Shown here piece after piece: positions 3,819-27,449 of a stretch of 28,463 bases of DNA (positions are counted from its first letter, which is position 1; every line of letters starts with the position of its first letter). The translations under genes were made by a program, and so were the position numbers. The DNA is from a virus. The notes under the pieces were generated by a model that saw only the letters and a list, made by a program, of their open reading frames with translations, ran no database searches and had not been told where the DNA came from. The stretch spans positions 1 through 28,463 of the IMG/VR virus record IMGVR_UViG_3300028399_000025. One strand, written 5' to 3'.

Positions 3819-4337
3819 TTATAAGTTATGAGACCCGACACGCACGTTCATCTGAACCTTCAAAAAATCGCTGTCCGCGAGAATAGTTGCCACACTGTTA
3901 ACGAAATTCAGATGCTCGCCGCTGCCAGAGGACGCATGATTCACAGCAGATGCCGTGCGCAAATCAACAGAGGTTATACTATCAGCAGCGCCCGCCCAGG
4001 TTGCGATAAGAATCATTGTCTCTTTACTGGTGGTCTGCGTTGACGCAAGCTTGCGTGTCACCTCGCCCATGCCCGCCTGCACACTGCCCAGGCTCGACGC
4101 CTCCGTCTGCGTGCCGATAGCGAGATAAAGAAACGCGCTGTTAACACCGTTCGTCACGCCAAGCTGCGCAAGCTTGTTCAGCCCTGCGCTTGTCAACGTA
4201 TTCCGTACACGGCTTCTTTCTACGGACCCGTCCGCACGAGTTACCTCGAACGTCCAATCGCCAACAATGGCAACGCCCTCGTCCTTGCCGGCAAAAGCAT
4301 TATAGATGTCCCGGTCACTGATACTTTGCTTCTTCAT
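3819..4337 (-). CDS. 172-aa putative virion / tail-fibre-associated protein
   Basis: The middle part (VRNTLTSAGLNKLAQLGVTN, then FLYLAIGTQTEAS and EVTRKLAST) matches a pattern common in phage appendage proteins: a T-x-x-G-L-x-x-L helix followed by an IG(T)G/T turn and a beta-rich half. The C-terminal part is Ser/Ala rich. Its first 23 bases overlap the end of the glycosyltransferase gene, so the two are probably made together. No enzymatic motif is seen; function is inferred from context. Confidence 0.6.
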   Translation of the reverse strand: MKKQSISDRDIYNAFAGKDEGVAIVGDWTFEVTRADGSVERSRVRNTLTSAGLNKLAQLGVTNGVNSAFLYLAIGTQTEASSLGSVQAGMGEVTRKLASTQTTSKETMILIATWAGAADSITSVDLRTASAVNHASSGSGEHLNFVNSVATILADSDFLKVQMNVRVGSHNL

Positions 4338-7260
4338 CGTCCTTCACCTTTTCGTCTATGATGAGTTTCAGTAGTCGTTGCAGGTGAGACTTATTGTGGA
4401 AATACCCCTGCACCCTGTGGGAATCTATTTGCGCATCAAACTCGAATCCGCCACCAAGCACTCTTGCGAGGCCACTGTAAAATTCAAGACCGTCAAGAGC
4501 CATGCGGAACAATTCCGGTTCCTCAAGTATCTCCTCAAAAATCTCCATGCCCCTTTTTGCGCGTGATATCATCTCGTTCGTTGTGCCGCGCCCTTCTTCT
4601 TTATCGAAAGTGCACATCTGACACAGATCCCGCAGCCACAGAAACTTGCCGAGGTTTCTATTCGGGTTCCTCTCCCTGTCCCTCACGAGCAGTTCAATGT
4701 TACGCTGAAACCTACCGCGGCGGACGGATTCATTCACATACCCATAGTGACCAATATTCAAGCCCGGGATGTTAATCACACGGCCAACGCCCTCGTTTAG
4801 CCCGATCTCCGGGTGCTCATGCACAACGCCGTTGAACGCGATGCCCTTGCCGTTACGGAATAGCCGCACCGGGTAATCGGTCTTCATCACTCCAGCAGGT
4901 TCCAGTGTGAAATGATGCTGCGGAATTGCGTACCCGTTGAATTGATTGTTGCGTAGGTAACGCGGGATCAATTCAGCTCTGTTAAGAACCTCATCACTAT
5001 CCAGCCACAGAATCCAGTCTCCATAGGCGTTATCCACTGTCTCGTTTCGCGCAGCATCAAACCCCTGTACAACAGGGGATTCGATATTCAGTACGGTGAG
5101 CGGCACATGATGATCGGCACAGAACTCAGCCGCGCGTTCAGCGGTGCTGTCTGTGCACGTGTCGTCAATCCCAAGAACAACCTCGTCAACGATCTCGATC
5201 ACGCTGGCCAGGCAACGCTCAATCTCACGCTCTGCATTTTTTGCAATCATACACAGAGAAATGGTCTGGCGCGGCTTCGCCAAAAATTCCTTGCGACCAT
5301 AGTCGATAACACCATTTTGGAGCCCGTCGTTCTCATACGTCACAACATAGCTGCCTAGCGGCTCACCAAACTTGCTCTGTCCTGCTGGCACGACAGTAAT
5401 CTGAAATCCTGAGTGCCCACTGAACAGGTCGCGTAGGTCCGCTTTCTCCAGGTGGTGGACATGTGCCCGCCAAGGCCAGTGCTCCTGATAGCCTTGCGCT
5501 TCCCACGGACCATACGGAACCGTGATAATCATTTTCCCGCCGGGCTTCATCTGCTGGCACAGCGCATCCGCACATCGCGCCGGGCTTTCCAGATGCTCTA
5601 ACACCTCCGCTGCAATCACGCAGTCCGCTAGTGGTAGCGGGGCTGCCTCTGCGATTGTAAGCGCGTCTCCTTCGACTGCACCACGATGGAATTGCACGTT
5701 TGTGACGCCTGCATCTGCTGCCCAGGCGATTGCTTTGTCGATGTTTGATTGCGTGATGTCGATGCCGGTGAATTTGAGCTGCGGGAACCTCTTCGCGAGG
5801 TTGATAGTGTAGTGGCCATGAGCACAACCGTAATCCAACACCATAGCGCCAGCAGGAAGATCGGCGATAAGAGAAGCCACGTACTCAAAACGACTATTGC
5901 CGCCAAGATTTTCTGGACCATAATTCACTCCACGCTGTTTCTCATATTCGTAATATTTTTCATAATGCAGCGCCCATGTGCCATCCATAAACGCATAGCA
6001 TTCGCGAAGCTCCTCGCGCACTGCCCTGTTGATCTCACCGACCAACGGCGCCTTGTTGAGCGCACGACGGAGGGCATAGATGTCGCTGTTGCGCAAGCAT
6101 TGCTTCAGGTAACCAGTCTCGGACGATGCACGAACGAATATCCCCCGCACGTGCTCCACCAGCATCTTCGCTGCGACAGCCCACGCAAAATTCCCTGCCG
6201 CTGCCTGCTGTTTGCTGATCAACTTGTTGAACGCGTCAGAGTCCATGAGCCGCAACACAAACTCATCCACGTCCGCCTTGCCATCGACACGGAGTTCCAT
6301 GCCCTTGTAATGCTCATCGTTCGGCAGGGTATCTATCAGCACCGTGCCAGAGCCTTCTGTTGTCTCCGGTAGTGCCCCGACGGCGCTCGTGAGCAGCGGC
6401 AGCCCAGCCGCCATGCACTCCATCGCGGTGATGCAGGACGTCTCCTCGAACGATGTCGGGTAGACGCAGATGTCGCATTGGCGCTGCACATTGGCGAGCT
6501 GCTGTTTTGTCAAGTGCCCAAGCACGCTGACATTCGGCAATGCCGCGCACCGCTGGTATAGGTATTGATAATACCCGGCCATCTGCGGCATCGTGTTGTC
6601 GTAGTTGCACACGTACAGATGGTGGCTGGCACCGATATCATGGAGCCGTTCCATAATGCCGCCGGGTTTGACCAAATTCTCCAGCCCACGCTCCGGGCGG
6701 CTGGTGTAGAGCAGATTCGGGCCACCGTCACGTTCAGGAATGTCCCGCTCATATGGGGTGTCGTACAAGGCGAGATCCACGCCGTTTTGGATTGGCATTA
6801 CGATATCAGGGTCCAGTCCCCACACTTTGACCACTTGGTCCTTGTGCCATTCACTCACTGTCAGTACCCCGTCCACGAACGGCATCTGTGCGAGCATGGC
6901 GTCTTTTGTTCCGTATGAGGCAAGATCATGCAGCCACAGGAGATTGACCTTGCTCGCCCAAGGATATTGAAATGCGAGCGGATGTCGCTGAATGATCAGA
7001 ACGTCCATCGGGGTGTTGGCCGCATAATGGTGGAATGCATCGCCGAGCGGTGTTTGTTCCGACACCGCGCCCATCGGCACGTATTGCACCCCGTCTGCGT
7101 GCATCCCCTGCTCCGTCCGCGTGAACAAGGTCACGTCATGGCCGATGCTGGCGAGCTCCCGCGCCATGTAATACGCAGCGGATTCACTGCCCCCGAGGCT
7201 ACGCTCATTGATCGTGTTGCCGTCAAACGGCATTCCGCCGCAATGGATCGTTATATACAT
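4315..7260 (-). CDS. trifunctional GT4 glycosyltransferase - SAM methyltransferase - GT2 glycosyltransferase fusion
   Basis: 981 aa with three enzyme domains. Residues 1-375: a GT-B fold group 1 (GT4) glycosyltransferase with LGGSES near residue 22, an N-terminal Rossmann half, LLYTSRPERGLE at 183, and the donor-binding SFEETSCITAMECMAAGLP at 270-288 with the E-x7-E pair. Residues about 430-645: a class I SAM methyltransferase with VLDYGCAHGHY (motif I, about 474), FTGIDIT at 498 and AAEVLEHL at 550. Residues about 660-900: a GT2 (GT-A) domain with ISLCMIAKNAEREIERCL at 667 and the metal-binding DSD in DWILWLDSDEVL (754-756). The C-terminus is helical and charged. It follows the capsid genes in the same operon, so modification of virion proteins, or of sugars on them, is the simplest idea. 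The substrate is unknown. The ATG has AGGGGAA upstream. Confidence 0.85.
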   Translation of the reverse strand: MYITIHCGGMPFDGNTINERSLGGSESAAYYMARELASIGHDVTLFTRTEQGMHADGVQYVPMGAVSEQTPLGDAFHHYAANTPMDVLIIQRHPLAFQYPWASKVNLLWLHDLASYGTKDAMLAQMPFVDGVLTVSEWHKDQVVKVWGLDPDIVMPIQNGVDLALYDTPYERDIPERDGGPNLLYTSRPERGLENLVKPGGIMERLHDIGASHHLYVCNYDNTMPQMAGYYQYLYQRCAALPNVSVLGHLTKQQLANVQRQCDICVYPTSFEETSCITAMECMAAGLPLLTSAVGALPETTEGSGTVLIDTLPNDEHYKGMELRVDGKADVDEFVLRLMDSDAFNKLISKQQAAAGNFAWAVAAKMLVEHVRGIFVRASSETGYLKQCLRNSDIYALRRALNKAPLVGEINRAVREELRECYAFMDGTWALHYEKYYEYEKQRGVNYGPENLGGNSRFEYVASLIADLPAGAMVLDYGCAHGHYTINLAKRFPQLKFTGIDITQSNIDKAIAWAADAGVTNVQFHRGAVEGDALTIAEAAPLPLADCVIAAEVLEHLESPARCADALCQQMKPGGKMIITVPYGPWEAQGYQEHWPWRAHVHHLEKADLRDLFSGHSGFQITVVPAGQSKFGEPLGSYVVTYENDGLQNGVIDYGRKEFLAKPRQTISLCMIAKNAEREIERCLASVIEIVDEVVLGIDDTCTDSTAERAAEFCADHHVPLTVLNIESPVVQGFDAARNETVDNAYGDWILWLDSDEVLNRAELIPRYLRNNQFNGYAIPQHHFTLEPAGVMKTDYPVRLFRNGKGIAFNGVVHEHPEIGLNEGVGRVINIPGLNIGHYGYVNESVRRGRFQRNIELLVRDRERNPNRNLGKFLWLRDLCQMCTFDKEEGRGTTNEMISRAKRGMEIFEEILEEPELFRMALDGLEFYSGLARVLGGGFEFDAQIDSHRVQGYFHNKSHLQRLLKLIIDEKVKDDEEAKYQ

Positions 7261-10593: not shown

Positions 10594-12830
10594 CACCCAA
10601 ATCCTTTTTGCGGCTGCAATGTCGGCTGCTCGCTCTCCGTCCAGCGGTCGATCTCTGTGACCGGGATCAGGAGGGAGCGGCAGTTGTAATGATTCGGAGG
10701 GCGATAGGTGTCCCAGAGTTCGTCCTTCGCTGCGTGAACATGGCCGTCTAGCTGCGTGCAAATTTGCGTGGTGCGACTGTCCAGGATGGCGCTGTATTCC
10801 AGTGCCTCAACGAAGCCGTCAAGTGCGGGATCGGTGAAATACCCATACCGGGCTTCGTTGATGGCCTCGAACAGGTTGGTTCTGACCATCGTATCGATGC
10901 GGGCCTGCGGATTAACTATGTCCTGGCCGGCCAATGCTTCGGCCAGCGCCGGCATCATATCCTCTGCCAGTAGTCCGTCGGATGCGAACGTTGAATATAC
11001 CTCCTGCTCGATCTCCTCCACCGTCTTGCCGGTTTTGGCGCCGTTCACGATGATGGTGTCGATTTTCTTTTTGACCTCGTCCGTCAGGTCCCCAGCTACC
11101 TTGAACGATTTGGTCTTGAAGAACTCGTCGCCGATGAACTTGAGCCGCTCGTGATCCATGAATCGTGAGAAGTTCAGTTTCTTTGCCTTGTCCACTTCGA
11201 TCTCAGCATGTTTCTGCCCCAGGTTCCAGCCGTCCTTGAACATAGCCCGTACCTGACGGTTGATCTTGCTTTTCAGGCCCGAGTCGAGCTTGAGCTTTTT
11301 GATTTCGATTCCCGTGCGCTCAGGATCCCAGTTCGGCTGCGCCTCCTTGAAGTCAGCAAGATATAGTTCTGTTAGATCAGACACGGACATTGCGATATTG
11401 TTCGCGTGTTCCTTCTCTATCGCCTGACTACTATTTGCGATCACGGTGAAGTCAACACGCTTCTCGGCCCGCGTGAATGCCGCCTTGATGACGGTGGCGC
11501 GGCCACGGATTGTCTCGTCTGGTATGTCCCCTGAGGCAGGTTGTTCCGGTTCCAGCGCTGCGGGCTCCTCTGGCGCTGGTTGCGCAGCCTGTGGCTCCTC
11601 TATCGTCGATGTATCGTCCTTGGCCGGGAAGCCCAGGAGGTTGCGCACGAACTCCTCGTCCGAATCGCTGCGCGTAACGGCCTGCTTGTCGAGCAATGCC
11701 GTCCATTGTTCGACCAGTGCCGTTATCTGTTCTTCAGACATCGGCTGGAACTTGAGGCGCGGCCAGTAGTCGTCACCAAAATTGATCTCGCCAAGCTGGC
11801 GGAATAATTGTTCGTTGAGGGTTTCTTCAAGACGGTTCGTGTCTGCTTTCAACGTCCAGAAGAACGCCTTGAGCTGCGTGTCCGACTGACTGTAGCTGCC
11901 GGTCTGGCCAGATGGGGTGATGCCCATAAGATTTGGCACCAGCAACGCCTTGGCAATGCCGAGATCATGGACTTGCATGGCCTCTTTGAAGGCGACGTTG
12001 TTGGTCGGGAAAACGGTGTTCAGTTCAATATCCGACGGCAGGATCATGCCGGCGCCATTGACCGAGTTATTGAGGACGCTTTGCAGGTTGTTATACTCCT
12101 GTGAGCCGGCCACCAGGGTCTTGCCGTTGACGGGCTGCAAAGTCTTGAACCCAGAGGCATGACGTTCCAACCACATATTCCAGAAGCGGATGGCCATGTC
12201 CTTACTGAACCATGAGCGATAGGCTTCGCGCAATTCCGACTGACCATAGTGCTCGTCATACTCCGGGTTGTGCGTGAAGTGGATGAACTTGCTGATATCA
12301 ATGTCCTGCTCGCGGTCGCCGATGCTCTGCGTAACCTTCTGCGTGGTCCCATGCTCATCGACAACGAACTCGAAAGTATCGAACGGTCGCAGTTTCAGTT
12401 CCTTAATGCCCCAGTAGGTCAGGCCCATGTAGTCAAACTGCTCAAACACCTTCTCGGTCATCGAGAAGCCCTGGTACATGCTGGTCAGGATACCGTTGAG
12501 GTTGTCTGTGAAGCTGCCCTTCATCCGCTGCACGATCAGCTCGGCGATGGCAATGCGGCGGGCGGCCTCGTCATCGCCCAACATGTCGCGGTCGCATTCG
12601 AAGGAAAATTGCCGGCTGGAGACCGCGTCGCGCTTGAACCGCACCACCGCCTTGACCTGCTCGTCCAGCATCATCTTGCGGTAAATGGCCGCGCCTTTCT
12701 TGCCGATCAGGCCGTCCGGGTTGTATTTCGGCATGTCGCTGCGGTTGTAGATCGCGTCCTGTGACCAGGCTGTCTCACCTGCCGGTACTTGCTTGTCCTG
12801 CGGCTTGTCTCTGCGGAACCACCACCTCAC
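10593..12830 (-). CDS. portal protein (DUF935, Mu gp29-like) fused to MuF head-morphogenesis domain
   Basis: 745 aa. Residues about 20-400 match a DUF935-type portal: MMLDEQVKAVVRFKRDAVSS, FSMTEKVFEQFDY, FIHFTHNPEYDEHYGQSELR, and FWNMWLERHASGF. A Pro/Glu/Ala-rich linker (about 415-450) follows. Residues about 560-735 form a MuF / SPP1 gp7 domain with YSAILDSRTTQICTQLDGHV and PPNHYNCRSLLIPV. The portal forms the DNA gate; MuF proteins sit inside the head near the portal and are usually a separate gene. The start is GTG, overlapping the terminase TGA, with AGGAG upstream. Confidence 0.85.
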   Translation of the reverse strand: MRWWFRRDKPQDKQVPAGETAWSQDAIYNRSDMPKYNPDGLIGKKGAAIYRKMMLDEQVKAVVRFKRDAVSSRQFSFECDRDMLGDDEAARRIAIAELIVQRMKGSFTDNLNGILTSMYQGFSMTEKVFEQFDYMGLTYWGIKELKLRPFDTFEFVVDEHGTTQKVTQSIGDREQDIDISKFIHFTHNPEYDEHYGQSELREAYRSWFSKDMAIRFWNMWLERHASGFKTLQPVNGKTLVAGSQEYNNLQSVLNNSVNGAGMILPSDIELNTVFPTNNVAFKEAMQVHDLGIAKALLVPNLMGITPSGQTGSYSQSDTQLKAFFWTLKADTNRLEETLNEQLFRQLGEINFGDDYWPRLKFQPMSEEQITALVEQWTALLDKQAVTRSDSDEEFVRNLLGFPAKDDTSTIEEPQAAQPAPEEPAALEPEQPASGDIPDETIRGRATVIKAAFTRAEKRVDFTVIANSSQAIEKEHANNIAMSVSDLTELYLADFKEAQPNWDPERTGIEIKKLKLDSGLKSKINRQVRAMFKDGWNLGQKHAEIEVDKAKKLNFSRFMDHERLKFIGDEFFKTKSFKVAGDLTDEVKKKIDTIIVNGAKTGKTVEEIEQEVYSTFASDGLLAEDMMPALAEALAGQDIVNPQARIDTMVRTNLFEAINEARYGYFTDPALDGFVEALEYSAILDSRTTQICTQLDGHVHAAKDELWDTYRPPNHYNCRSLLIPVTEIDRWTESEQPTLQPQKGFG

Positions 12831-14401
12831 AGTATCATCTCCTCTGCGGCGGATTCCATAGAGCCGATAACGACCGGCTCAAACGTGGCCGGCATCTGCG
12901 GTGCCTGAGTGGCGTATTGCATCATCCAGGACTCTGCCATGTCCGGTGACTTGATGCCCTTGGCGGTCATTTCCGCTTTGGTCATCAAGTCCTCCCGGTT
13001 CTGCGAGCCCTCGCGAATCTGGATGGAGCACATCTGCGCGCAGAAATCTTCCCAGTCCTCGTCAGATTCGAAGCAATCGTCGGCGAACACGACGCGGCCC
13101 TCCAGGAGTCGATCACGGCCAACCATGTGCGACTGGACGCGACGGTTGCGCCACTTGGTCGGGTCGTCGCTGTTTGAGCCGCCCTTGTAGATCACGGTCG
13201 GATATTTCTTGACAGTACCGTCCTTCTGAGCGATGCCGCGAATGAGGTGGCCAGCGCAGCCAGCGCCAACACCGAGGCCATCAACCACAATATCGTCACC
13301 ATTGCGAGGGTCACCACCCAGGCTATCAAAGACACGGGCAGCGGCTTCCGCGGAAAGGATGGGGGACTCTGCGGTCGGGAAGGAGTGGCGGGATATCTTG
13401 AGGTATTCGTCGAAGGAGTCATACATGCGCCGCGCGGTAATCACGGTTTCATCCTCGCCGCCATCGGACACGTCGACTGAGACGCGCAAACGAGGAATCG
13501 AGCCATCGGCCTTGAGGTCGGAATCACGGGCATTGAGCAGCCACTGAAGTTGAATGAGTTGGTTCTTGCCACCGTCTGCAAACTCGCCCAGGCAACGGAT
13601 CTTGTAGATCGGGCTGTCGGTACCGTACTTCTGACCCATCTGCTTGACCCAGTCGCGGTTGACTCTGTTGGTCTTGGTCAGATCCACGTGGATGCGGTGA
13701 TAGTGCTTGGCCACCGTCTCCTTCATGTGGGACTCGTAGAACGTGCCCAGGTTCTTTGTCGGGTTGCCGATGAGCAGGACAATAACGATGTGGCCCGTTG
13801 ATACTGCGCCCTCAATGACGGGGAACATTTCCTCTTTGAGGCCGGATGCCTCGTCGACGATAAACAGCAGGTGATCGTCATGGTAGCCGGCCAGGTTCTC
13901 CGGCTCGCTGGCGGTTTCCGCATGAGCGGCCCAGTCCTCGTCGCCGCACCAGGTTATCTTGATGGCCTCGACCTTGGTCAGCGAAGCATAAGCCTCACCG
14001 GCGCGTGAACGGATCTTCCGAAATGCGGGCCACAGACGAGTACGAAGCTGCTTCTCTTTTGGTGCGGTACAGACGATGGTGCCCTTGAACACGAAGTTGA
14101 ACCAGTGCATGATGCCGGCGACGCCGAAGGTCTTGCCTGGGCCGTGCATTGCACGGACAGTGATTTTGCCTTTTCCATCGTGATTGTACCGTGTAGGTAT
14201 GCCGTTCTTCTTGCGCCAGACGTCGGCGACCGATTCCACAAGTTCGCGCTGCCAGATATCGAGGTCCCAGTTCTGGCCGCGCTTGAGGTCGTCTGCGGTG
14301 GATTTGATGTTAAGGACTTTCTCAAAGAACCAGACAGGTTCCCGCCGGGCCTTTTCGACGGTGGCCACCAGTTGCTCGGTCAGGTTATTGACGGAGCCCA
14401 C
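12827..14401 (-). CDS. terminase large subunit (TerL)
   Basis: 524 aa, the motor that cuts and pumps DNA into the prohead. The ATPase domain has an early WQRELVESVADVW adenine-binding region, a Walker A variant RAMHGPGKTFG (Lys90), Walker B LLFIVDEAS (Asp183-Glu184) and the coupling motif LLIGNPT at 209-215. The C-terminal RNase H-like nuclease begins at LRVSVDVSDGGEDETVI (Asp310), with DIVVDGLGVGAG as a second acidic strand and a late acidic AESWMM helix. It is similar in outline to Mu gp28-like terminases. GTG start with GGAGG upstream; it overlaps the small-subunit gene by 17 bp. Confidence 0.9.
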   Translation of the reverse strand: MGSVNNLTEQLVATVEKARREPVWFFEKVLNIKSTADDLKRGQNWDLDIWQRELVESVADVWRKKNGIPTRYNHDGKGKITVRAMHGPGKTFGVAGIMHWFNFVFKGTIVCTAPKEKQLRTRLWPAFRKIRSRAGEAYASLTKVEAIKITWCGDEDWAAHAETASEPENLAGYHDDHLLFIVDEASGLKEEMFPVIEGAVSTGHIVIVLLIGNPTKNLGTFYESHMKETVAKHYHRIHVDLTKTNRVNRDWVKQMGQKYGTDSPIYKIRCLGEFADGGKNQLIQLQWLLNARDSDLKADGSIPRLRVSVDVSDGGEDETVITARRMYDSFDEYLKISRHSFPTAESPILSAEAAARVFDSLGGDPRNGDDIVVDGLGVGAGCAGHLIRGIAQKDGTVKKYPTVIYKGGSNSDDPTKWRNRRVQSHMVGRDRLLEGRVVFADDCFESDEDWEDFCAQMCSIQIREGSQNREDLMTKAEMTAKGIKSPDMAESWMMQYATQAPQMPATFEPVVIGSMESAAEEMIL

Positions 14402-14765
14402 CGACCGCCTCCGCGAGTGCTTCTGCCAGTGAGCCTAGCGGGTTGTTCCCGTCGCCATCGGTCAGGTCCACTTGCTTCAGGTCCGGGAGGACTTTGGCCA
14501 GTCGCCTGAAATTCAGGTCTACTTGGGTCTTGATGATCCGGTTCTGCGAGTCGGCCTTGGCGACGGTCTCTGCGATCTTGTTCGGATTGCTTTCCGTATT
14601 GCGTGCCTTGCGGACAGTGGTACGCAGTTCCTCTAACTGCTTTTGGGAGTTGTCGAGCTGGCGCAGGTACTCGATACCCTTGAATTTCAAGCGCAGGGCG
14701 TCCTGCTGCTCCTTGCGGCGCTTTTGCGCCAAGGTCCGGTTATCAGGTTTCTTTTTCACCGCCAA
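14385..14765 (-). CDS. probable terminase small subunit
   Basis: 126 aa, highly charged and nearly all helical (LRLKFKGIEYLRQLDNSQKQ, NKIAETVAKADSQNRIIKTQ), ending in an Ala/Leu-rich helix. Directly before and overlapping the large subunit, this is the expected place for the DNA-recognising small subunit. The start is uncertain: TTG at 14765 has GGGGAT upstream; GTG at 14759 is the alternative (MKKKPDN). No typical HTH is obvious, so identity rests on position, size and helical content. Confidence 0.6.
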   Translation of the reverse strand: MAVKKKPDNRTLAQKRRKEQQDALRLKFKGIEYLRQLDNSQKQLEELRTTVRKARNTESNPNKIAETVAKADSQNRIIKTQVDLNFRRLAKVLPDLKQVDLTDGDGNNPLGSLAEALAEAVGGLRQ

Positions 14766-14779
14766 TGCAATATCCCCAA

Positions 14780-14795
14780 ATAGGATTCTCCGTAT
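14780..14795 (-). promoter_or_regulatory. operator-like site, variant of the 15-bp motif, before the terminase genes
   Basis: On the minus strand it reads ATACGGAGAATCCTAT, one base longer than the other copies. It starts about seven bases after the -10 element of the leftward promoter, so a bound protein would block initiation of the packaging operon. Confidence 0.5.
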
Positions 14796-14802
14796 AACGC
14801 CA

Positions 14803-14832
14803 AGTATAATAGGGATACCAAAATAAAAACAA
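14803..14832 (-). promoter_or_regulatory. candidate sigma-70 promoter for the packaging/morphogenesis operon
   Basis: On the minus strand TTGTTT (14827-14832) and TATACT (14803-14808) are separated by 18 bases. No other gene lies between it and the terminase operon, and an operator-like site covers the predicted +1 region. Confidence 0.5.
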
Positions 14833-14880
14833 CCCCCAATCTACAGAATGTTCTTTACTTCGTTCCACATCTGTGGTATC

Positions 14881-14904
14881 CGCGCGTGCGCGCGTATATA
14901 TACA
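14881..14904. other. 24-base alternating pyrimidine-purine tract (possible Z-DNA / melting element)
   Basis: The run begins CGCGCGTGCGCGCG and continues TATATATACA. The GC half can adopt Z-DNA and the TA half melts easily. A second such run (15 bases) is at 15056-15070. Confidence 0.7.
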
Positions 14905-14969
14905 AAAAATAACCAGGGGAACTAACTTCCTTAGGCAAAAAAATGCACGCAAGATAGGTGACCATTAGT

Positions 14970-15011
14970 ATTGCCTTATATTGGCCTATTGGCTTATTGC
15001 CCTATTGGCAG
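14970..15011 (+). repeat. 8-bp iterons, ATTGGC(C/T)T type
   Basis: Four units follow one another without gaps: ATTGGCCT (14980), ATTGGCTT (14988), ATTGCCCT (14996) and ATTGGCAG (15004); a fifth, ATTGCCTT, is at 14970 after a two-base gap. Short direct repeats in a non-coding, divergent region are typical of initiator-binding sites in replication origins or of cooperative operators. Confidence 0.75.
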
Positions 15012-15020
15012 AGTTGCCGA

Positions 15021-15075
15021 GTAACTTAGTTACCGCCTCGCGCCTGCGCGGGTAACGTGCGCGCACGCGCCCGCG
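15021..15075. repeat. cluster of inverted repeats and GTAAC boxes
   Basis: GTAAC-TTA-GTTAC forms an inverted repeat at 15021-15033. Then CGCGGG (15047-15052) pairs with CCCGCG (15070-15075), enclosing the 10-bp palindrome GTGCGCGCAC (15057-15066). GTAAC occurs again at 15052 and at 15075. This may form a cruciform or bind regulators. Confidence 0.65.
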
Positions 15076-15133
15076 TAACACAATCTATCTGGGAAGTAAA
15101 TACCCCATTCTGGGTATAGAAAGCACCTTGTTT

Positions 15134-15148
15134 ATATGAAAATCAAAT
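15134..15148 (+). promoter_or_regulatory. operator-like site, copy 1 (ATATGAAAATCAAAT)
   Basis: Ten or more positions agree with the perfect copy ATACGAAAATCGTAT, including the GAAAATC core. It lies between the iteron cluster and the rightward promoter. Confidence 0.45.
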
Positions 15149-15164
15149 AATGCGCGGCATCCTC

Positions 15165-15179
15165 ATACGAAAATCGTAT
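15165..15179 (+). promoter_or_regulatory. operator-like site, copy 2, perfect dyad ATACGAAAATCGTAT
   Basis: ATACGA and TCGTAT are exact reverse complements around an AAA centre. It is the most symmetrical copy and best shows the motif to be a dimer-binding site. Confidence 0.65.
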
Positions 15180-15220
15180 TTAGGAAACCCCGTTCCCGAC
15201 CGCCCAAATCAACTGCTCTT

Positions 15221-15235
15221 ATAACAAAATCCAAT
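15221..15235 (+). promoter_or_regulatory. operator-like site, copy 3 (ATAACAAAATCCAAT)
   Basis: Keeps ATA, the AAAATC core and the final AT of the motif; the right arm is degraded. It lies 32 bases upstream of copy 4. Confidence 0.45.
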
Positions 15236-15252
15236 AACGCTCCTACCCACTT

Positions 15253-15267
15253 ATAACTAAATCATAT
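15253..15267 (+). promoter_or_regulatory. operator-like site, copy 4 (ATAACTAAATCATAT), abutting a -35 box
   Basis: The motif ends exactly one base before the TTGTAC -35 element at 15268, so a bound protein could repress or activate the rightward early promoter. Confidence 0.5.
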
Positions 15268-15296
15268 TTGTACCCGCACTATAGCTCCTATATAAT
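15268..15296 (+). promoter_or_regulatory. sigma-70 promoter of the rightward early operon
   Basis: TTGTAC (15268-15273), a 17-base spacer and a consensus TATAAT (15291-15296). The predicted start of transcription (about 15303) falls on or next to the ATG at 15304, so the mRNA may be leaderless. TATAG-CTC-CTATA forms a small inverted repeat at 15280-15292. Confidence 0.75.
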
Positions 15297-15303
15297 CCGG
15301 CCC

Positions 15304-15465
15304 ATGAAACTGAAATCTTTTATCGTAGACCCCGAAGATTGGGTCAAATTTAAGCGCCTGGCGGCCGACAATTACCAGTCGGCGAGCGCCAGGATTCGCC
15401 AATTGATCCGCGAGGACTTGGAAAAATGCCTGAAAAAGACACGGTCTACCCGGACGGGGAACTAA
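15304..15465 (+). CDS. ribbon-helix-helix (CopG/Arc-like) regulator
   Basis: 53 aa. An N-terminal strand (KLKSFIVD) is followed by two helices (EDWVKFKRLAADN and SASARIRQLIREDLEKCL), the pattern of RHH dimers that bind short operator arrays through the paired strands. It is the first gene after the rightward promoter and is next to several copies of the 15-bp dyad, so autoregulation and control of the divergent packaging promoter are likely. There is no Shine-Dalgarno site; the ATG sits at the predicted +1. The basic tail (KKTRSTRTGN) may help DNA binding. Confidence 0.7.
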   Translation: MKLKSFIVDPEDWVKFKRLAADNYQSASARIRQLIREDLEKCLKKTRSTRTGN

Positions 15466-15731
15466 AAAAAGGCATCGTCGAGGCGTTCGGGAACCTGCGC
15501 TTGTTCGCCAAAATCGTGGACATTAACTATTCCAGATTGTGTCGGGTGGTTAACGAACGACCTTGTTCCCAGGACGATATTCACCTGGTTTTGGAGAAAT
15601 GGCAGGAATTTGGCCCGGAGTGGGTACACCCCAGGGCGGAGGCTATCCTCAGCCGGGGACCGACAAAGAACGACTTTCGGTGGCTGTACAATCTCTATCT
15701 ACACGTGACATTATCTCTGGCCAAGAAATAG
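15426..15731 (+). CDS. 101-aa putative helix-turn-helix regulator
   Basis: Starts 40 bases inside the RHH gene. Residues about 15-48 (IVEAFGNLRLFAKIVDINYS, then RLCRVVNERPCSQDD) resemble a Cro/XRE-type helix-turn-helix, with the S-R-x-x-R-V-V-N-x-R recognition helix. The rest is helical. Its 3' end overlaps the end of the oppositely oriented nuclease gene by 83 bases. A partner or antagonist of the RHH protein in an early switch is plausible. Confidence 0.6.
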   Translation: MPEKDTVYPDGELKKGIVEAFGNLRLFAKIVDINYSRLCRVVNERPCSQDDIHLVLEKWQEFGPEWVHPRAEAILSRGPTKNDFRWLYNLYLHVTLSLAKK

Positions 15732-16101
15732 CCGGGCCGGCCCATAGTGCGAGCTCACGCATCTCCTCTTGAGACGCCTGCCCGAGCCGGCCTATCGACC
15801 GCCAGCCGAACAAAAGATACTCCGAGCCCACCTGCCACAATAACCCGTAGCAGCCCCCTGCACGGCCCTCCGCCACCGCCCAGCGTCTTTGTTCGTCCGT
15901 CAAATGATCGCAGCGTAGGGGGGTCCCCCGGCGGGCAGGCCACCGCGCCGAATACTTCAGCTCAATCCAGGCGCCGACCCCGCAGCACCGCACCCACAGA
16001 TCCGGCGTTCCCTGCTCGACCGCGTTCTCGATCCGCACCCAGTGCCCGTCTCCGGGGAACGCCCGCCGGGCGGTATCACGCAAGCTGGCCTCTGATCCCA
16101 T
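15649..16101 (-). CDS. PDDEXK / VRR-NUC-like nuclease
   Basis: 150 aa. Contains the core ENAVEQGTPDLWVR (Glu26/Glu29, Gly31, Pro33-Asp34) then AWIELKYSAR (Glu47-x-Lys49) and LTDEQRRWAVAEGRAGG (Gln71), the E...G-PD...ExK...Q order of VRR-NUC and phage resolvase-like nucleases. Such enzymes cut branched or flapped DNA. It is the only minus-strand gene in the early region, so it is probably expressed separately. One copy of the 15-bp operator-like motif touches its ATG. The long 3' overlap with a plus-strand gene is unusual. Confidence 0.7.
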   Translation of the reverse strand: MGSEASLRDTARRAFPGDGHWVRIENAVEQGTPDLWVRCCGVGAWIELKYSARWPARRGTPLRCDHLTDEQRRWAVAEGRAGGCYGLLWQVGSEYLLFGWRSIGRLGQASQEEMRELALWAGPAISWPEIMSRVDRDCTATESRSLSVPG

Positions 16102-16116
16102 ATACGAAAATCCTAT
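16102..16116 (-). promoter_or_regulatory. operator-like site, copy 5 (ATACGAAAATCCTAT on the plus strand)
   Basis: Differs from the perfect dyad at one base and lies directly upstream of the nuclease start, so binding would block initiation or early elongation of that gene. It is also 125 bases before the next plus-strand gene. Confidence 0.55.
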
Positions 16117-16147
16117 TTACAACCTATGTCTATACAATAAAATATTA

Positions 16148-16177
16148 TTGGTAATTCCCAACTGACGCACCTATTAT
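16148..16177 (+). promoter_or_regulatory. possible promoter before the 105-aa gene
   Basis: TTGGTA and TATTAT are separated by 18 bases, upstream of a gene with a good ribosome site and after a convergent gene pair, where a new promoter would be needed. The match is moderate. Confidence 0.35.
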
Positions 16178-16240
16178 ATACCCGAACACAACGAAAAACC
16201 GGCTTGATACCCTTGGCCGCTAAACAAAAGGAGAAAGGCA

Positions 16241-16558
16241 ATGACAACGAAGCAGCTTATCCCAGGACTCGAAGCACGTCGGATCGTAACCGCCCCGAAG
16301 GGCTCGTGGAAATGGCAGGATGCCTACCGTATATCGACATATCACGCCTATTTGCTCAAAAATGGGCGGGTGGCTTGGCAGTCGGTAAGCCAGTCAGAGA
16401 AATTCTCCGAACCACAGTTGCGCCGTAATGGGTTCGATGACCTGCCGCACGGCTCACTCCACAATTGGCCGGTAAGTCGCCGCGAGGCCGTTGCAGTAAT
16501 CGGCGAGGATGCAGTCAAAGAAATCGAAGCCCGCGGATATATGTTTTCGGGGAATTAA
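16241..16558 (+). CDS. 105-aa hypothetical protein
   Basis: Starts at MTTKQLIPGLEARR with AAGGAGAAAGGCA upstream. The sequence has WKWQDAYRISTYHAYLLKNG and then SLHNWPVSRREAVAVIGEDA, a mixed alpha/beta protein without cysteines or membrane segments. It is the first of a co-oriented run leading to the helicase and SSB-like genes, so an early or replication-related role is possible. I do not recognise a family. Confidence 0.65.
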   Translation: MTTKQLIPGLEARRIVTAPKGSWKWQDAYRISTYHAYLLKNGRVAWQSVSQSEKFSEPQLRRNGFDDLPHGSLHNWPVSRREAVAVIGEDAVKEIEARGYMFSGN

Positions 16559-16572
16559 CGGAGGATAGGGAA

Positions 16573-17013
16573 ATGAATAACGTAATCGGAATCAAACCGC
16601 AGTACATGAGCCAGCCAATGCTCGCCGCGCTATACCGTATCCCCGAGGCAGACCGGAGCGCCGTTGAGTCCACGCTGATCTCCCTGGCGCTAGGGTATGT
16701 GAGCGTCCCCGATGCGTATCGCCAGCTCAAAGACATACTGCTAGATAACGACAATGAGATCGGGTACCGCTGGGAACGTGTCGCCAGCAAATATCCCGAG
16801 TTGGTGAAATTTGTCGATGAGGATCTGACGATGATCGACACCGTATCGGACATCGAGGGCGAGCGGTGCCTGGTGATGTTGCCGTGGTTATCGCTGGTGG
16901 CCCCTGGTATCCGCGAGGCTATTGTAGCGGCCGGGGTGATTGCGCCGGATGATCGTCTGAGTGCAGAGCATGTCATGGCTGTTGCCGGCGTATACGCGGA
17001 GGATACGAAATGA
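16573..17013 (+). CDS. 146-aa hypothetical protein
   Basis: Starts MNNVIGIKPQYMSQPMLAAL with GGAGG upstream. It is mostly helical and acidic (DAYRQLKDILLDNDNEIGYR, PELVKFVDEDLTMIDT) with a hydrophobic C-terminal part (LPWLSLVAPGIREAIVAAGV) that is too broken by charges to be a clear membrane segment. Its stop overlaps the start of the next small gene (ATGA). No family is recognised. Confidence 0.65.
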   Translation: MNNVIGIKPQYMSQPMLAALYRIPEADRSAVESTLISLALGYVSVPDAYRQLKDILLDNDNEIGYRWERVASKYPELVKFVDEDLTMIDTVSDIEGERCLVMLPWLSLVAPGIREAIVAAGVIAPDDRLSAEHVMAVAGVYAEDTK

Positions 17014-20625: not shown

Positions 20626-22125
20626 ATGATAGAGAAGTTCATGGAGTTGTTCGCGGGGTTGCCGCGGGCGTATGGCACTTACAAATTGACCGGCGAGACC
20701 TCGAAGAAAGGCAAAGCTGAAGGCCGGGCCACAACCATCCAGGAGCCAGTCACAGAACAATTATGGGTGGCCCATCTCGCCGGCCGGCAAGGGCTGGGCA
20801 TTGTCCCGATCCGTGACGATGGCTCCGTCGTGTTCGGGGTCATTGATATTGACGAATACGATCTTGATCTCAAGGCGCTAGAATTAAAAATCAAAAAGCT
20901 CAAGCTGCCGGTGGTAATGTTCCGCAGCAAGTCCGGCGGCGCCCATTTATATGTATTCCTGAAAGCCCAGGCCAGCGCCAAGAACATCCGGCATAGCCTA
21001 GGCTACATTGCCGAGCTGCTCGGGTATCCGGGCATCGAGGTATTTCCCAAGCAGAACCACCTTGCCGGTCAGGATGATGTCGGCAACTGGATCAACATGC
21101 CTTACTTCGCCGGCGACCGGACAACTCGCTATTGCATTAAGGATGGCAAGTCACTGACGGTCGAGCAGTTCCTCAAATACGTCGAGACCCGCAAGACCAC
21201 TATTGAGGATCTGATGGCGCTTGAGCAGGACTTCGACGACGTTTACCTTGAAGGCGCACCGCCCTGCCTGATTGCGCTGGCCCGAAGTGGCGTCGGCGAG
21301 GGGATGCGCAACGATGTGATGTTCAGCTTCTCGGTATTCGCGCACAAGGCGTCTGAGGATCCGGTGAACATCTTGAACCACGTCAACGATAATTATATGC
21401 AGCCACCGCTGACCCAGGCCGAACTTGCAGTCTTGATCAGAGCCGGCGGTAAAAAAGACTATTTTTACAAGTGCTCCGCCCTCAAGGCCGTCTGTAATAA
21501 AGAGCGATGCCGCCAGTCCCGCTACGGCATCGGTGACGGCCCGAGTGACCCCGGTTTAGCCATCGACGGCATCACTAAGATTTGCTCCGACCCGCCAACA
21601 TGGGTTGTGCAAATAAACGGCTCACGCATCAGGATGTCAACCGACGAGCTGCTTACACAGAGCAAGTTTGGCAAGCGATGCGTTGAATCCATCAACTTCT
21701 TGCCGCCGACCCTCAAGGCGCCAAAGTGGGTAGCATTTATCAATGCTATGCTGGCCGAGCGTCGGGAGGTGGAGGCGCCGCCGGACGCCGGCCCGGCTGG
21801 ACAGTTCATGCACCACTTGGAGCAGTTCTGCGTGACCAAGGCGCCGGCAAACAGTCGGGACGAGATCCTACTCGGCAAGCCCTGGCACGACGAAGAAAGC
21901 GGACGCACATTCTTTCGATCCGCTGACCTGTTCAAGTACCTTGAGCAGCAACGGTTCCGAGACCTCAAGGAAAACCAAATTTATGCACTCTTACACGACG
22001 TCGCCAATGTAAAAAAGGATTTTTTTAACCTGAAAGGACGCGGTGTCAATGTGTGGGGTGTTCCGACGTTCGACAGACAGACCGAGGATTTTGACGTGCC
22101 TCGGGTACCAGAGGAGGAGTTTTGA
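20626..22125 (+). CDS. archaeo-eukaryotic-type (AEP) primase
   Basis: 499 aa. The AEP core has the metal-binding pair in FGVIDIDEYD (Asp74, Asp76), RSKSGGAHLYVFL with His107, and EVFPKQ...GNWINMPYF (about 138-161). The second half has Cys214 in APPCLIAL, then CSALKAVCNKERC (283-295), a four-cysteine set that may bind zinc or an iron-sulfur cluster as in PriL-like or PriCT regions. It resembles the primases of TOTE-type systems and many phages. It makes primers for phage replication, probably with the neighbouring helicases. The ribosome site GGAGGGGGC is strong. Confidence 0.8.
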   Translation: MIEKFMELFAGLPRAYGTYKLTGETSKKGKAEGRATTIQEPVTEQLWVAHLAGRQGLGIVPIRDDGSVVFGVIDIDEYDLDLKALELKIKKLKLPVVMFRSKSGGAHLYVFLKAQASAKNIRHSLGYIAELLGYPGIEVFPKQNHLAGQDDVGNWINMPYFAGDRTTRYCIKDGKSLTVEQFLKYVETRKTTIEDLMALEQDFDDVYLEGAPPCLIALARSGVGEGMRNDVMFSFSVFAHKASEDPVNILNHVNDNYMQPPLTQAELAVLIRAGGKKDYFYKCSALKAVCNKERCRQSRYGIGDGPSDPGLAIDGITKICSDPPTWVVQINGSRIRMSTDELLTQSKFGKRCVESINFLPPTLKAPKWVAFINAMLAERREVEAPPDAGPAGQFMHHLEQFCVTKAPANSRDEILLGKPWHDEESGRTFFRSADLFKYLEQQRFRDLKENQIYALLHDVANVKKDFFNLKGRGVNVWGVPTFDRQTEDFDVPRVPEEEF

Positions 22126-22361
22126 TGATGACCGTATCCGGAGCCACGTTGCGTGAGGTAAGACGTATTCTCGATATTAGCCAGTGCCAGTGCGCAAAGG
22201 CACTCGGCGTGTCACAGAGCGTGCTGGTGACCGTTGAACGTGGGCACACCGAACCATCACCCCCGCTGGGAATTAAGATGACAGCGTGGGTGCGGAAGAA
22301 TAAACCTAAAGTGAAAGCAAAGCTTAAAGAGCTGACGTCCGCCCTGGATGATATAGGATGA
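22125..22361 (+). CDS. XRE-family helix-turn-helix regulator
   Basis: 78 aa from the ATG overlapping the primase stop (TGATGATG). Residues 8-45 are a typical XRE domain: LREVRRILDISQCQCAKALG then VSQSVLVTVERGHTEPS (the S-Q-x-x-V-x-x-x-E-R-G recognition segment). The C-terminal Lys-rich tail is short. It could regulate this operon; its operator is not known. Confidence 0.8.
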   Translation: MMTVSGATLREVRRILDISQCQCAKALGVSQSVLVTVERGHTEPSPPLGIKMTAWVRKNKPKVKAKLKELTSALDDIG

Positions 22362-24173: not shown

Positions 24174-24593
24174 ATGGCGGCAGCGTATGAGCAGATCGTG
24201 AGCAATTACATCGACCGCGGGTACACGGTTCACGATCACCGCACAGAATCAACCGTCCTGCTACGGCTGGGTAAGCCCTGCTCTGCCGTGGTTGTTTTTG
24301 AAAATGGGCAACCAACCCGCGTCTTGAACGGGATGCAAATCGACAAACTTCTACAAGGAGAAGATATCATGGCAACAAAAGCAAAGAAGACCCCAGCAAA
24401 GAAGACCCCAGCAAAGAAGACCCCTGTATCCCTCGGCAAGCGCAACGGCTCTGTGGCCAAAGCTCGTACCATCTTTGACGGCCTCCAGGAGAAGACCCGT
24501 AAGGCCGCTCTGGTGGCTTGTGACAAGGCAGGTATCAACCGTAATACGGCATCAACCCAGTGGCAGAAGTACCGTCAGGAGAACGGCCTGTGA
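24174..24593 (+). CDS. 139-aa two-part protein with a Lys/Pro/Ala repeat linker
   Basis: Residues 1-65 form a small alpha/beta unit (VHDHRTESTVLLRLGKPCSA). Residues 66-85 hold MATKAKKTPAKKTPAKKTP, a histone H1-like basic linker encoded by three tandem 15-bp repeats. Residues 90-139 are a helical unit (AKARTIFDGLQEKTRKAALV, INRNTASTQWQKYRQENG) resembling a small HTH. An internal start at 24369 with AAGGAG could yield the C-terminal part alone. DNA binding is likely from composition. Confidence 0.65.
   Translation: MAAAYEQIVSNYIDRGYTVHDHRTESTVLLRLGKPCSAVVVFENGQPTRVLNGMQIDKLLQGEDIMATKAKKTPAKKTPAKKTPVSLGKRNGSVAKARTIFDGLQEKTRKAALVACDKAGINRNTASTQWQKYRQENGL
24369..24593 (+). CDS. possible shorter product from an internal start (74 aa, basic)
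   Basis: The ATG is preceded by CAAGGAGAAGATATC, a better ribosome site than that at 24174. The product begins at the histone-like KKTPAKKTP repeat and ends in the HTH-like half. Either this is the principal product and the upstream part a separate reading, or both forms are made. Not resolvable by sequence alone. Confidence 0.5.
   Translation: MATKAKKTPAKKTPAKKTPVSLGKRNGSVAKARTIFDGLQEKTRKAALVACDKAGINRNTASTQWQKYRQENGL
24381..24425 (+). repeat. three tandem 15-bp repeats (GCAAAGAAGACCCCA)
   Basis: Units at 24381, 24396 and 24411; the last differs at its final base. They encode AKKTP three times. Slipped-strand change would add or remove five residues without breaking the frame. Confidence 0.9.
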
Positions 24594-25045
24594 TCACCGT
24601 CACCAAACAGATGCGGACCGAAACTGCCCACCGGCTCATGGGCTACGATGGCCGCTGCTCCCATCTTCACGGACACAGTTATCTGTGGGAAGTCACGGCC
24701 ACCGCATCGGACCTGTCAGACAACGGCATGATCGTCGACTTCAAGGATTTGAAGCGGGCGATGATGGCCGTAATCGACCCTCTGGATCATGCGCTTGTTC
24801 TGCACCGCAGCGACCCGCTCCTAGGCCTCGGTATTGACCCGAGCAAACTGTTCCGGGCCACCAACGGCAAGGAGCCGCGCCTATGGATATGGAACCAGAA
24901 CCCAACGGCGGAGAACATGGCCTCCTGGGCGGCCCAAGCCATCCAGGAGGCCATAGACCCCGACAATCATATCCTCATCACCCAACTGCGGGTGTGGGAG
25001 ACATCGACCAGCTTTGCGGATTGGAGGAGACGATGCAGATCCTGA
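24590..25045 (+). CDS. queD: 6-carboxy-tetrahydropterin synthase, QueD
   Basis: 151 aa, second enzyme of the preQ0 pathway: converts dihydroneopterin triphosphate to 6-carboxy-tetrahydropterin. Zinc ligands His14 (ETAHRL), His27 and His29 (HLHGHSY), catalytic Cys23 (GRCSH), and Asp66-His67 (PLDHALVL) are present, with PTAENMA and VWETSTS at the usual places. An insertion of about 25 residues (HRSDPLLGLGIDPSKLFRAT) lies between them. The start is GTG at 24590 (GTGA overlap, AGGAGA upstream) rather than the upstream GTG at 24560. Confidence 0.9.
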   Translation: MITVTKQMRTETAHRLMGYDGRCSHLHGHSYLWEVTATASDLSDNGMIVDFKDLKRAMMAVIDPLDHALVLHRSDPLLGLGIDPSKLFRATNGKEPRLWIWNQNPTAENMASWAAQAIQEAIDPDNHILITQLRVWETSTSFADWRRRCRS

Positions 25046-25215
25046 TGCAATCCTACCGACCCACCGGGCAACGTCCGCTGTATCGGCAGAAACTCCGCGA
25101 CGCGTTCGTCAATTGCCCGATGGCGCGTAACCCAGTGGCCATTGAACGCTGCGTCAAGTGCGGTGACCTCGCGAAGCTCAACATCAACTCCGTGAGGTGC
25201 AACCATGTTCGGTAA
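25033..25215 (+). CDS. 60-aa Cys-containing protein between queD and queE
   Basis: ATG at 25033 with GGAGGAGACG directly upstream. Starts MQILMQSYRPTGQRPLYRQK and has RCVKCGDLAKLNINSVRC near the end, a CxxC plus a third Cys, a possible zinc knuckle. It overlaps the end of queD (13 bp) and the start of queE (11 bp), so it is kept within the pathway operon. No family is recognised. Confidence 0.6.
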   Translation: MQILMQSYRPTGQRPLYRQKLRDAFVNCPMARNPVAIERCVKCGDLAKLNINSVRCNHVR

Positions 25216-25900
25216 CAACCCCGTCCGCAAGCAGGAGCTGCGGCAGGACGGCGCCTTGTGGGTATCGGAGATATTCGCCACTATACAGGGTGAAGGTCCG
25301 CTGGCCGGCACGCCAGCCATCTTCATCCGCCTGTCCGGCTGCAATCTCCGCTGTGACTTCTGTGATACGGACTTCGAAAGCGTAAGACATCAATTCACGG
25401 TCGAGGAGATCAGTAGAATCGTAAGGACACACAGTAACGCCAAGGGCGGCAAAATAGGGCTGGCCGTTATCACCGGCGGTGAGCCCTTCCTGCAAAACAT
25501 CGTCCCGTTGATCGTGGAGCTGCGCAGTACCGGCTTCGAGGTACAAATCGAAACCGCCGGCACCGTATCCATCCAGGGATTTCCATGGTATGAGGTGACG
25601 GTGGTTGTCAGCCCGAAAACCGGCAAGGTCCATCCACAGTTCCATCTGATGGCCAGGGATTGGAAGTATGTGATTAGCGCCAGTCACCAGAAGCATGATC
25701 CCGACACCGAACTTCCCATGCTAGACAGCGGCAAGCCCATCGCCACGCCCGCCAGGCCCTCGGCAATGATATGGGTACAGCCGATGGACGAGTACGACCC
25801 GCACAAGAACAAGCGGAATGTCCAGCACTGCATTGATGTGGTGATGCGAAATGGCTACCGCATTTCCCTACAGACCCACAAGATATTAGGAGTCGAATGA
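25205..25900 (+). CDS. queE: 7-carboxy-7-deazaguanine synthase, QueE (radical SAM)
   Basis: 231 aa. Residues 23-58 carry [20 protein letters not shown] then [12 protein letters not shown] with CxxxCxxC (Cys46, Cys50, Cys53) binding the 4Fe-4S cluster; TGGEPFLQ is the SAM-binding motif; ETAGT follows at about 120. It rearranges 6-carboxy-tetrahydropterin to 7-carboxy-7-deazaguanine using S-adenosylmethionine and Mg. The N-terminus overlaps the 60-aa gene, and the stop overlaps queC (ATGATG). Confidence 0.93.
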
Positions 25901-26562
25901 TGTCAAATAAAATTGTAGTGATCTATTCCGGCGGCATGGACAGCTACACCATGCTAATGAACTACCGCGCAGCAGGCCGGGATGTCCATGCCGTCCTGTT
26001 CAACTACGGCCAGCGCCACTTGAAAGAACTAGAATATGCCATGAAAGTCGCCGAAGGCTTGGGCATTCCGCATAAAGTCGTCAACATGTCGAAGATGGGC
26101 TGGGAACTGCTCGGCGGGTCGTCACAGACCGACAAGTCGATCCCGGTGCCTGAAGGACATTACGAGGACGAAACCATGCGCCTCACCGTCGTCCCGAACC
26201 GCAATATGATCATGCTATCCATGGCCATTGGATACGCGGTCAGTATCGGGGCCGGCACTGTCGCCTATGGCGCGCACAGTGGCGACCACGCCATCTACCC
26301 TGACTGTCGTCGTGAGTTCGTCGACGCCATGAACGCGGTGGCGCAGATCGCCAATTACCAGCCGGTGAAGATTGAGGCACCGTTCCAGGATCTATCGAAA
26401 GGCGAAATCGCCGAAATCGGCAAGGACCTCGGCCTCGATTACAGCAAGGCATGGACCTGCTACAACGGCCGGGCAAAGCCCTGCGGCAAATGCGGCGCCT
26501 GTCAGGAGCGCATCGAGGCGATGGAATACGCTGGCATCGAAGACCCGCTGGAGTATGAATAA
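25897..26562 (+). CDS. queC: 7-cyano-7-deazaguanine (preQ0) synthase, QueC
   Basis: 221 aa. The PP-loop YSGGMDS (10-16) binds ATP; the C-terminal zinc site is [18 protein letters not shown] with Cys188, 196, 199 and 202. It turns the 7-carboxylate into the nitrile with ATP and ammonia, giving preQ0. It is a stand-alone QueC without the amidotransferase domain found fused in some phages that make archaeosine-type bases. AGGAG precedes the ATG; the stop overlaps the next ATG (TAATG). Confidence 0.95.
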
Positions 26563-27449
26563 TGGACAAGACTATCGTCAAGAACTTCGACATTGCAGTG
26601 GCGGCCCGTGAGGTCGCCCACATGATCAGGGCGCAGAATCCGCCGAAGCCGGTATGTCTGTACGGCGTGCCCAGGGGCGGGATACCGGCAGCCTACGCGG
26701 TACAGGCCGCGCTCAACCGTATCGGCCATCCCTGCGAGGTGGTAGACAGCCCGGAGGCCAGCCACTTCATCATCGACGACATCATTGACAGCGGCGCAAC
26801 CAGATCCCGATATGCCTTATACGGCAAGCCGTTCTTCGCGCTTTATGAGGACATGGGCGGGGGCTGGCTGGTGTTTCCCTGGGAGGCCGGGGACAGTGAT
26901 GCCAGCGCCGAAGACATCCCCCTGCGCCTGTTGCAGTTCATTGGCGAGGATCCGGAGCGCGGCGGTCTGCAAGAAACCCCGAAGCGGTTTCTCAAGGCGT
27001 GGCAGCATTATACCAGCGGGTACGATCAAGACCCGGCGGAGATCCTCAAGGTATTCGAAGACGGAGCAGAAAACTATGACGAGATGGTCGTGGTCCGGGA
27101 CATTCCTGTTTATTCTCATTGCGAGCATCACCTTGCTCCATTCTTTGGGGTTGCACACATTGGATATATTCCTGCGGGGCGTATTGTCGGCCTATCCAAG
27201 CTGTCACGCTTGGTTGACGTCTATGCTCGACGCCTTCAGGTACAGGAGCGCCTCACCAATCAGATTGCCGATGCCCTGGTAGAGCACCTGCAACCGCTCG
27301 GCGTGGCGGTGGTCCTGGAGTGCCGTCATATGTGTATGGAGGCGCGAGGCATCCAGCGCCAAGGCAGTGCCACCATTACCAGCGCGATGCGTGGTCTGAT
27401 GCGCGAGAACATCGCCACTCGTGCGGAGTTCATGGAGCTGCTAAGATGA
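26562..27449 (+). CDS. folE: phosphoribosyltransferase - GTP cyclohydrolase I fusion
   Basis: 295 aa. Residues 1-110: a small type I PRTase with [11 protein letters not shown] (35-45), the PRPP loop [15 protein letters not shown] (69-83) and the WLVFPWE end (102-108). Residues about 118-295: GTP cyclohydrolase I with [10 protein letters not shown], zinc ligands Cys187 and His190 in [13 protein letters not shown] and Cys258 in [10 protein letters not shown], and [12 protein letters not shown]. The second half makes dihydroneopterin triphosphate from GTP, the first step of the pathway. The fused PRTase may salvage guanine or supply nucleotides; its substrate is not known. The linker is only about ten residues. 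No stop or frameshift separates the halves. Confidence 0.9.

Follow-up and report, generated by a model that had tools for sequence, protein, structure and literature searches.

Operator-like 15-bp dyads in two divergent control regions of an uncultured tailed phage

The short dyads repeated between the leftward and the rightward genes of this phage form a genuine operator-like set of a familiar kind, at which protein binding is predicted from the sequence. They probably serve as operators to which a small, dimeric DNA-binding protein of the phage itself would bind, most likely one encoded by the two-gene operon at 15304–15731. This reading draws on the enrichment of the sites, their positions relative to predicted promoters, the adjacent operon with its two DNA-binding candidates and the divergent layout found in relatives. 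Against it count a motif that is not conserved, two candidate proteins lacking homologues in phage records, an approximate promoter matrix and mismatches at 4 of 15 positions in two of the weak sites.

Genomic setting and the repeated dyads

The window analyzed here is a whole virus record of 28,463 bases, apparently a fragment of the genome of an uncultured tailed phage, and all genome-wide statements refer to these 28.5 kb. No close relative at the DNA level was found among the phage records. The leftward genes from position 14765 down serve packaging and structure (terminase, portal, capsid), and the rightward genes from 16241 up include those for an SNF2-type helicase, a Pam3 gp34-like protein, a primase-like AEP protein and a UvrD-type helicase, as well as what we take to be a queuosine-type gene set. 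A cluster of the queD/queE/queC/folE type at 24560–27449 suggests 7-deazaguanine modification of the DNA. In addition, the window contains a 981-aa ORF (4315–7260) that looks like a glycosyltransferase–methyltransferase–glycosyltransferase fusion, and encodes a small basic protein (ORF 24174–24593) in which an in-frame 15-bp tandem repeat (24379–24426) gives rise to AKKTP-type units.

Between the two modules lies a rightward operon of two genes, which overlap by 40 nt and encode proteins of 53 and 101 aa. It is followed by a leftward nuclease-type gene, presumably VRR-NUC-like, that converges on the 101-aa gene so that the two overlap at their ends (Table 1). The operon and the opposing nuclease gene thus create two divergent control regions, A (14766–15303) and B (16102–16240). 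Neither an integrase or other lysogeny gene nor a CI-like protein was recognized by eye among the ORFs of the fragment, which were searched in part, and no RNA element with a match in Rfam was found in 14000–17000.

Table 1. Coordinates of the dyad copies, genes and predicted promoters around control regions A and B.
Feature	Position	Strand	Remarks
Operator copy ATACGAAAATCGTAT	15165–15179	+	exact; symmetric 6-bp arms
Operator copy	16102–16116	+	1 mismatch; within the leader of the nuclease gene
Operator copy	15134–15148	+	3 mismatches
Operator copy	15221–15235	+	4 mismatches; 32 bp from the 15253 copy
Operator copy	15253–15267	+	4 mismatches; centred at −43 of the predicted early promoter
16-bp operator variant ATACGGAGAATCCTAT	14780–14795	−	4-bp instead of 3-bp spacer; 9/10 arm positions
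Small terminase gene	14385–14765	−	TTG start; 38–41% identity to the ORFs that precede TerL in L008 and L005
Terminase large subunit gene	12827–14401		after the small terminase gene
RHH53, 53-aa RHH protein gene	15304–15465	+	no Shine–Dalgarno sequence, predicted leaderless
HTH101, 101-aa Cro-like HTH protein gene	15426–15731	+	overlaps the RHH gene
Nuclease-type gene	15649–16101	−	PHROG 2165, labelled there 'DNA helicase'; convergent with the HTH gene
Predicted packaging (late) promoter	14803–14832	−	TTGTTT-18-TATACT; TSS ~14796; best leftward in region A
Predicted early promoter	15268–15296	+	TTGTAC-17-TATAAT; TSS ~15303; best rightward in region A
Predicted rightward promoter	16116–16143	+	TTTACA-16-TAAAAT; TSS ~16150; best rightward in region B
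Predicted nuclease promoter	16134–16161	−	TTGGGA-16-TATTGT; TSS ~16127; weaker, score 6.1

The half-site word of the dyad, TCNTAT, is present as two inverted copies across an A-rich spacer of 3 bp (4 bp in the 14780 variant). A re-scan returned all six sites exactly where the original prediction had placed them, and its description of the 15165 copy as a perfect dyad holds for the arms (ATACGA/TCGTAT), which are perfectly symmetric, but not for the AAA spacer. The two strong copies are distributed one per divergent intergenic region, with 15165 in region A and 16102 in region B, and their identity extends to 17 of 18 bases (ATACGAAAATCSTATTTA). The weak copies (15134, 15221 and 15253) and the 14780–14795 variant are all found in region A, the larger of the two. 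Sites 15134 and 15165 are spaced by 31 bp, and sites 15221 and 15253, which have 13 of 14 bases in common, by 32 bp, three helical turns in either case. No further copy with three or fewer mismatches was found in the remainder of the 28.5-kb window; the scan yielded three more sites with four mismatches, all in coding DNA (151, 20856 and 28248). Region A also harbors about 4–5 units of a tandem 8-bp repeat, TATTGGCC (14968–15010), possibly an origin, a pac site or an RHH-type site.

Predicted promoters and candidate binding proteins

Promoters and start sites were predicted by a consensus scan with a simple, approximate sigma-70 matrix of the E. coli type, which may not fit the host. The scan reproduced the contacts that had been proposed with the +1 of the packaging promoter, the −35 of the early promoter and the start of the nuclease gene, and it revealed one that had been missed: the 16102 site is centred at −41 of the best rightward promoter in region B, directly against its −35 box. 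This site also occupies about +11 to +25 of the predicted nuclease promoter, the 14780 variant spans +1 to +16 of the predicted packaging promoter, and the 15253 site adjoins the −35 box of the predicted early promoter. At both predicted rightward promoters, the repeat runs straight into the −35 box (TTTA/TTTG tail). The predicted early start site is located one base before the ATG of the RHH gene, with no Shine–Dalgarno sequence (15291–15306), so the mRNA may be leaderless.

As we infer it, the operator set most likely represses the leftward promoters, and represses or activates the rightward ones. A protein bound at +1 to +16 would block the packaging promoter, and one bound in the nuclease leader, over the ribosome-binding region, would block the nuclease transcript. 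At −41/−43 of the rightward promoters, the bound protein would either exclude the polymerase or activate it from a class II position, and the 31- and 32-bp pairs would allow cooperative binding.

The original prediction named the product of the RHH gene as the natural candidate for the binder. RHH53 does score against RHH_1 of Pfam, but weakly and below the cut-off (E-value, 0.048; 14.1 bits vs. the cut-off of 20.5), with an E-value of 0.003 at the scale of this genome. Its single-sequence AlphaFold2 prediction, made with no homologues, gave one long helix, an uninformative model. Two further candidates had been left unweighed. HTH101 aligned weakly to a Cro profile, built from eight P22-Cro-like proteins, with a hhalign P of 0.0045, compared with 0.16–0.39 for three controls. 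The third candidate, the protein at 22122–22361, has the clearest HTH in the window (HTH_3; E-value, 6.7 × 10−6). No homologues of RHH53 or HTH101 were found in the phage records, and a single-sequence scan of viral contigs detected neither homologues of HTH101 nor relatives of the nuclease; relatives of the nuclease are present in the phage records.

Symmetric sites of 15 bp are not peculiar to RHH proteins. The binder may be RHH53, HTH101 of the same operon or the 22122–22361 protein; RHH53 is somewhat favored over HTH101, as the operator-flanked promoter leads directly into its gene. A tentative alternative is that HTH101, and not RHH53, binds the 15-bp dyads, the RHH protein binding elsewhere (e.g., to the 8-bp repeats at 14979–15009) or acting as a co-factor. 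HTH101 outscored 1,997 of 2,000 of its own shuffles on the Cro profile (the other three scored as well), with the alignment falling at a correctly placed helix-turn-helix, and the 8-bp array in the same region may be compared to the arrays of 7-bp repeats bound by the RHH protein omega (PMC4803016; PMC9499535). However, HTH101 matches no Pfam family, its structure, predicted with no homologues, is of low confidence, and the first gene downstream of the operators encodes RHH53. A single-protein switch by RHH53 over the early and late modules, as originally proposed, is one of several possible readings.

Chance expectation

In simulations based on a dinucleotide model of each intergenic region, an 18-mer pair identical at 17 of 18 positions between regions A and B arose in 3 of 20,000 runs, three weak sites within the 538 nt of region A, given its own dinucleotide content, had a p value of 0.001, and the 14780 variant had one of 0.027; all three values are optimistic, because the consensus was taken from the same DNA that was tested. 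In the window as a whole, chance alone should produce about one such 18-mer pair; the observed pair is significant because both of its copies fall in two short divergent regions, and because of its symmetry. Repeated symmetric sites are confined to the promoter regions above chance, the pattern that marks an operator set.

It is unlikely that the 15165/16102 pair alone is meaningful, with the 14780 variant and the weak copies arising as chance matches in A+T-rich DNA. Two of the weak copies do carry four mismatches, as do three sites in coding DNA, and the p value of the 14780 variant, 0.027, followed a post hoc choice; however, chance would account poorly for three weak sites in region A, for the 31- and 32-bp spacing of the pairs and for the bases shared by the 15221 and 15253 copies. 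A promoter or leader function of the shared 18-mer, for instance as an UP-like or activator element of the rightward promoters that is contacted by a host factor or the 22122–22361 protein, is quite improbable as an alternative to an operator of the adjacent operon. The repeat does run into the −35 box of both rightward promoters, and that protein offers the clearest HTH; however, sites also occur downstream of two leftward starts, where an upstream element would have no sensible role, and both symmetric arms are kept, not one side alone.

Known systems and distant relatives

In phage lambda, an operator is located at about −42 of PRM, and CI bound at OR2 activates PRM from a class II position. 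The dyad set resembles the lambda OR/OL operators of CI and Cro in having symmetric sites of 15–17 bp, paired, in two control regions and beside divergent promoters, and it resembles cI/PRM in that the regulator mRNA is predicted to be leaderless and that an operator is located at about −42 of the promoter from which the regulator would be transcribed. The cI mRNA of lambda is leaderless (PMC3017554), and CI at OR1/OR2 represses PR and activates PRM (PMC3708714). Unlike in lambda, no CI-like protein or integrase was recognized in the fragment, the presumed operators are also found at the starts of the packaging operon and the nuclease gene, and one operon encodes both candidate regulators, the RHH protein of 53 aa and the HTH protein of 101 aa.

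In a more speculative version, to which we give little credence, the leaderless RHH plus Cro-like operon would read the same dyads at four promoters, repressing the terminase operon and the nuclease and activating the replication promoter as well as its own from −41/−43, with a lambda PRM-like timing of early versus packaging genes and no sign of lysogeny in the fragment. If the −41/−43 placement means activation, the packaging genes would be directly under the early regulator, by lambda-like logic; otherwise, the sites would form an ordinary repressor–operator set. Such switches are common in phages, and what is new is the phage lineage that carries this one: the four predicted promoters and six short sites provide a testable regulatory map for an uncultured lineage with no cultured relative at the DNA level.

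A small RHH_1-matching protein beside presumed operators, in the layout of an autoregulated operon, also recalls the RHH repressors (Arc/Mnt of P22, CopG, omega), from which the candidate protein encoded here differs in its match below the Pfam cut-off. In Mesyanzhinovviridae phages (Ab18, M6, Bhz59), a homologous nuclease gene is located directly beside a small HTH 'repressor' gene; the two genes are on the same strand there, whereas they are convergent in the window, and a kinship of HTH101 with the Ab18 and M6 repressors was rejected for want of similarity.

The relatives obtained by terminase and capsid searches are all distant, with TerL identities of 41–69%. In one of them, G005, the order of nuclease, convergent small gene, intergenic region and TerS is as in the window, with the small gene facing the nuclease gene and transcribed away from TerS, and a divergent early/TerS region is kept in two others (G006 and G007). 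The small gene of G005 encodes 110 aa, the C-terminal half of which appears RHH-like by eye with no Pfam hit; it was rejected as kin of RHH53, as no similarity was found. The dyad with three or fewer mismatches is absent from six regions upstream of TerS in distant relatives (best, 4–5 mismatches), and no other copy within one mismatch was found in 1.84 Mb of phage loci, except for two chosen by a pattern scan. The exact 18-mer had two matches (L006 and L007) in 2.9 million viral contigs, which were treated as chance because of their unrelated surroundings. Thus, the layout recurs across relatives, whereas the sites are this phage's own, as is common for phage operators. Since the motif is unconserved and the relatives are all distant, the comparison provides no phylogenetic footprint or comparative proof. 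Repeats of other kinds occur between genes in some of the relatives. Upstream of TerS, L008 carries tandem arrays of an 8-bp unit (TATCCTTG) along with three repeats of 32 bp; L003 carries repeats of the TTAGGAG type. In L004 (2306–4861), the terminase large subunit is interrupted in frame by an intein-like insertion immediately downstream of the Walker A motif.
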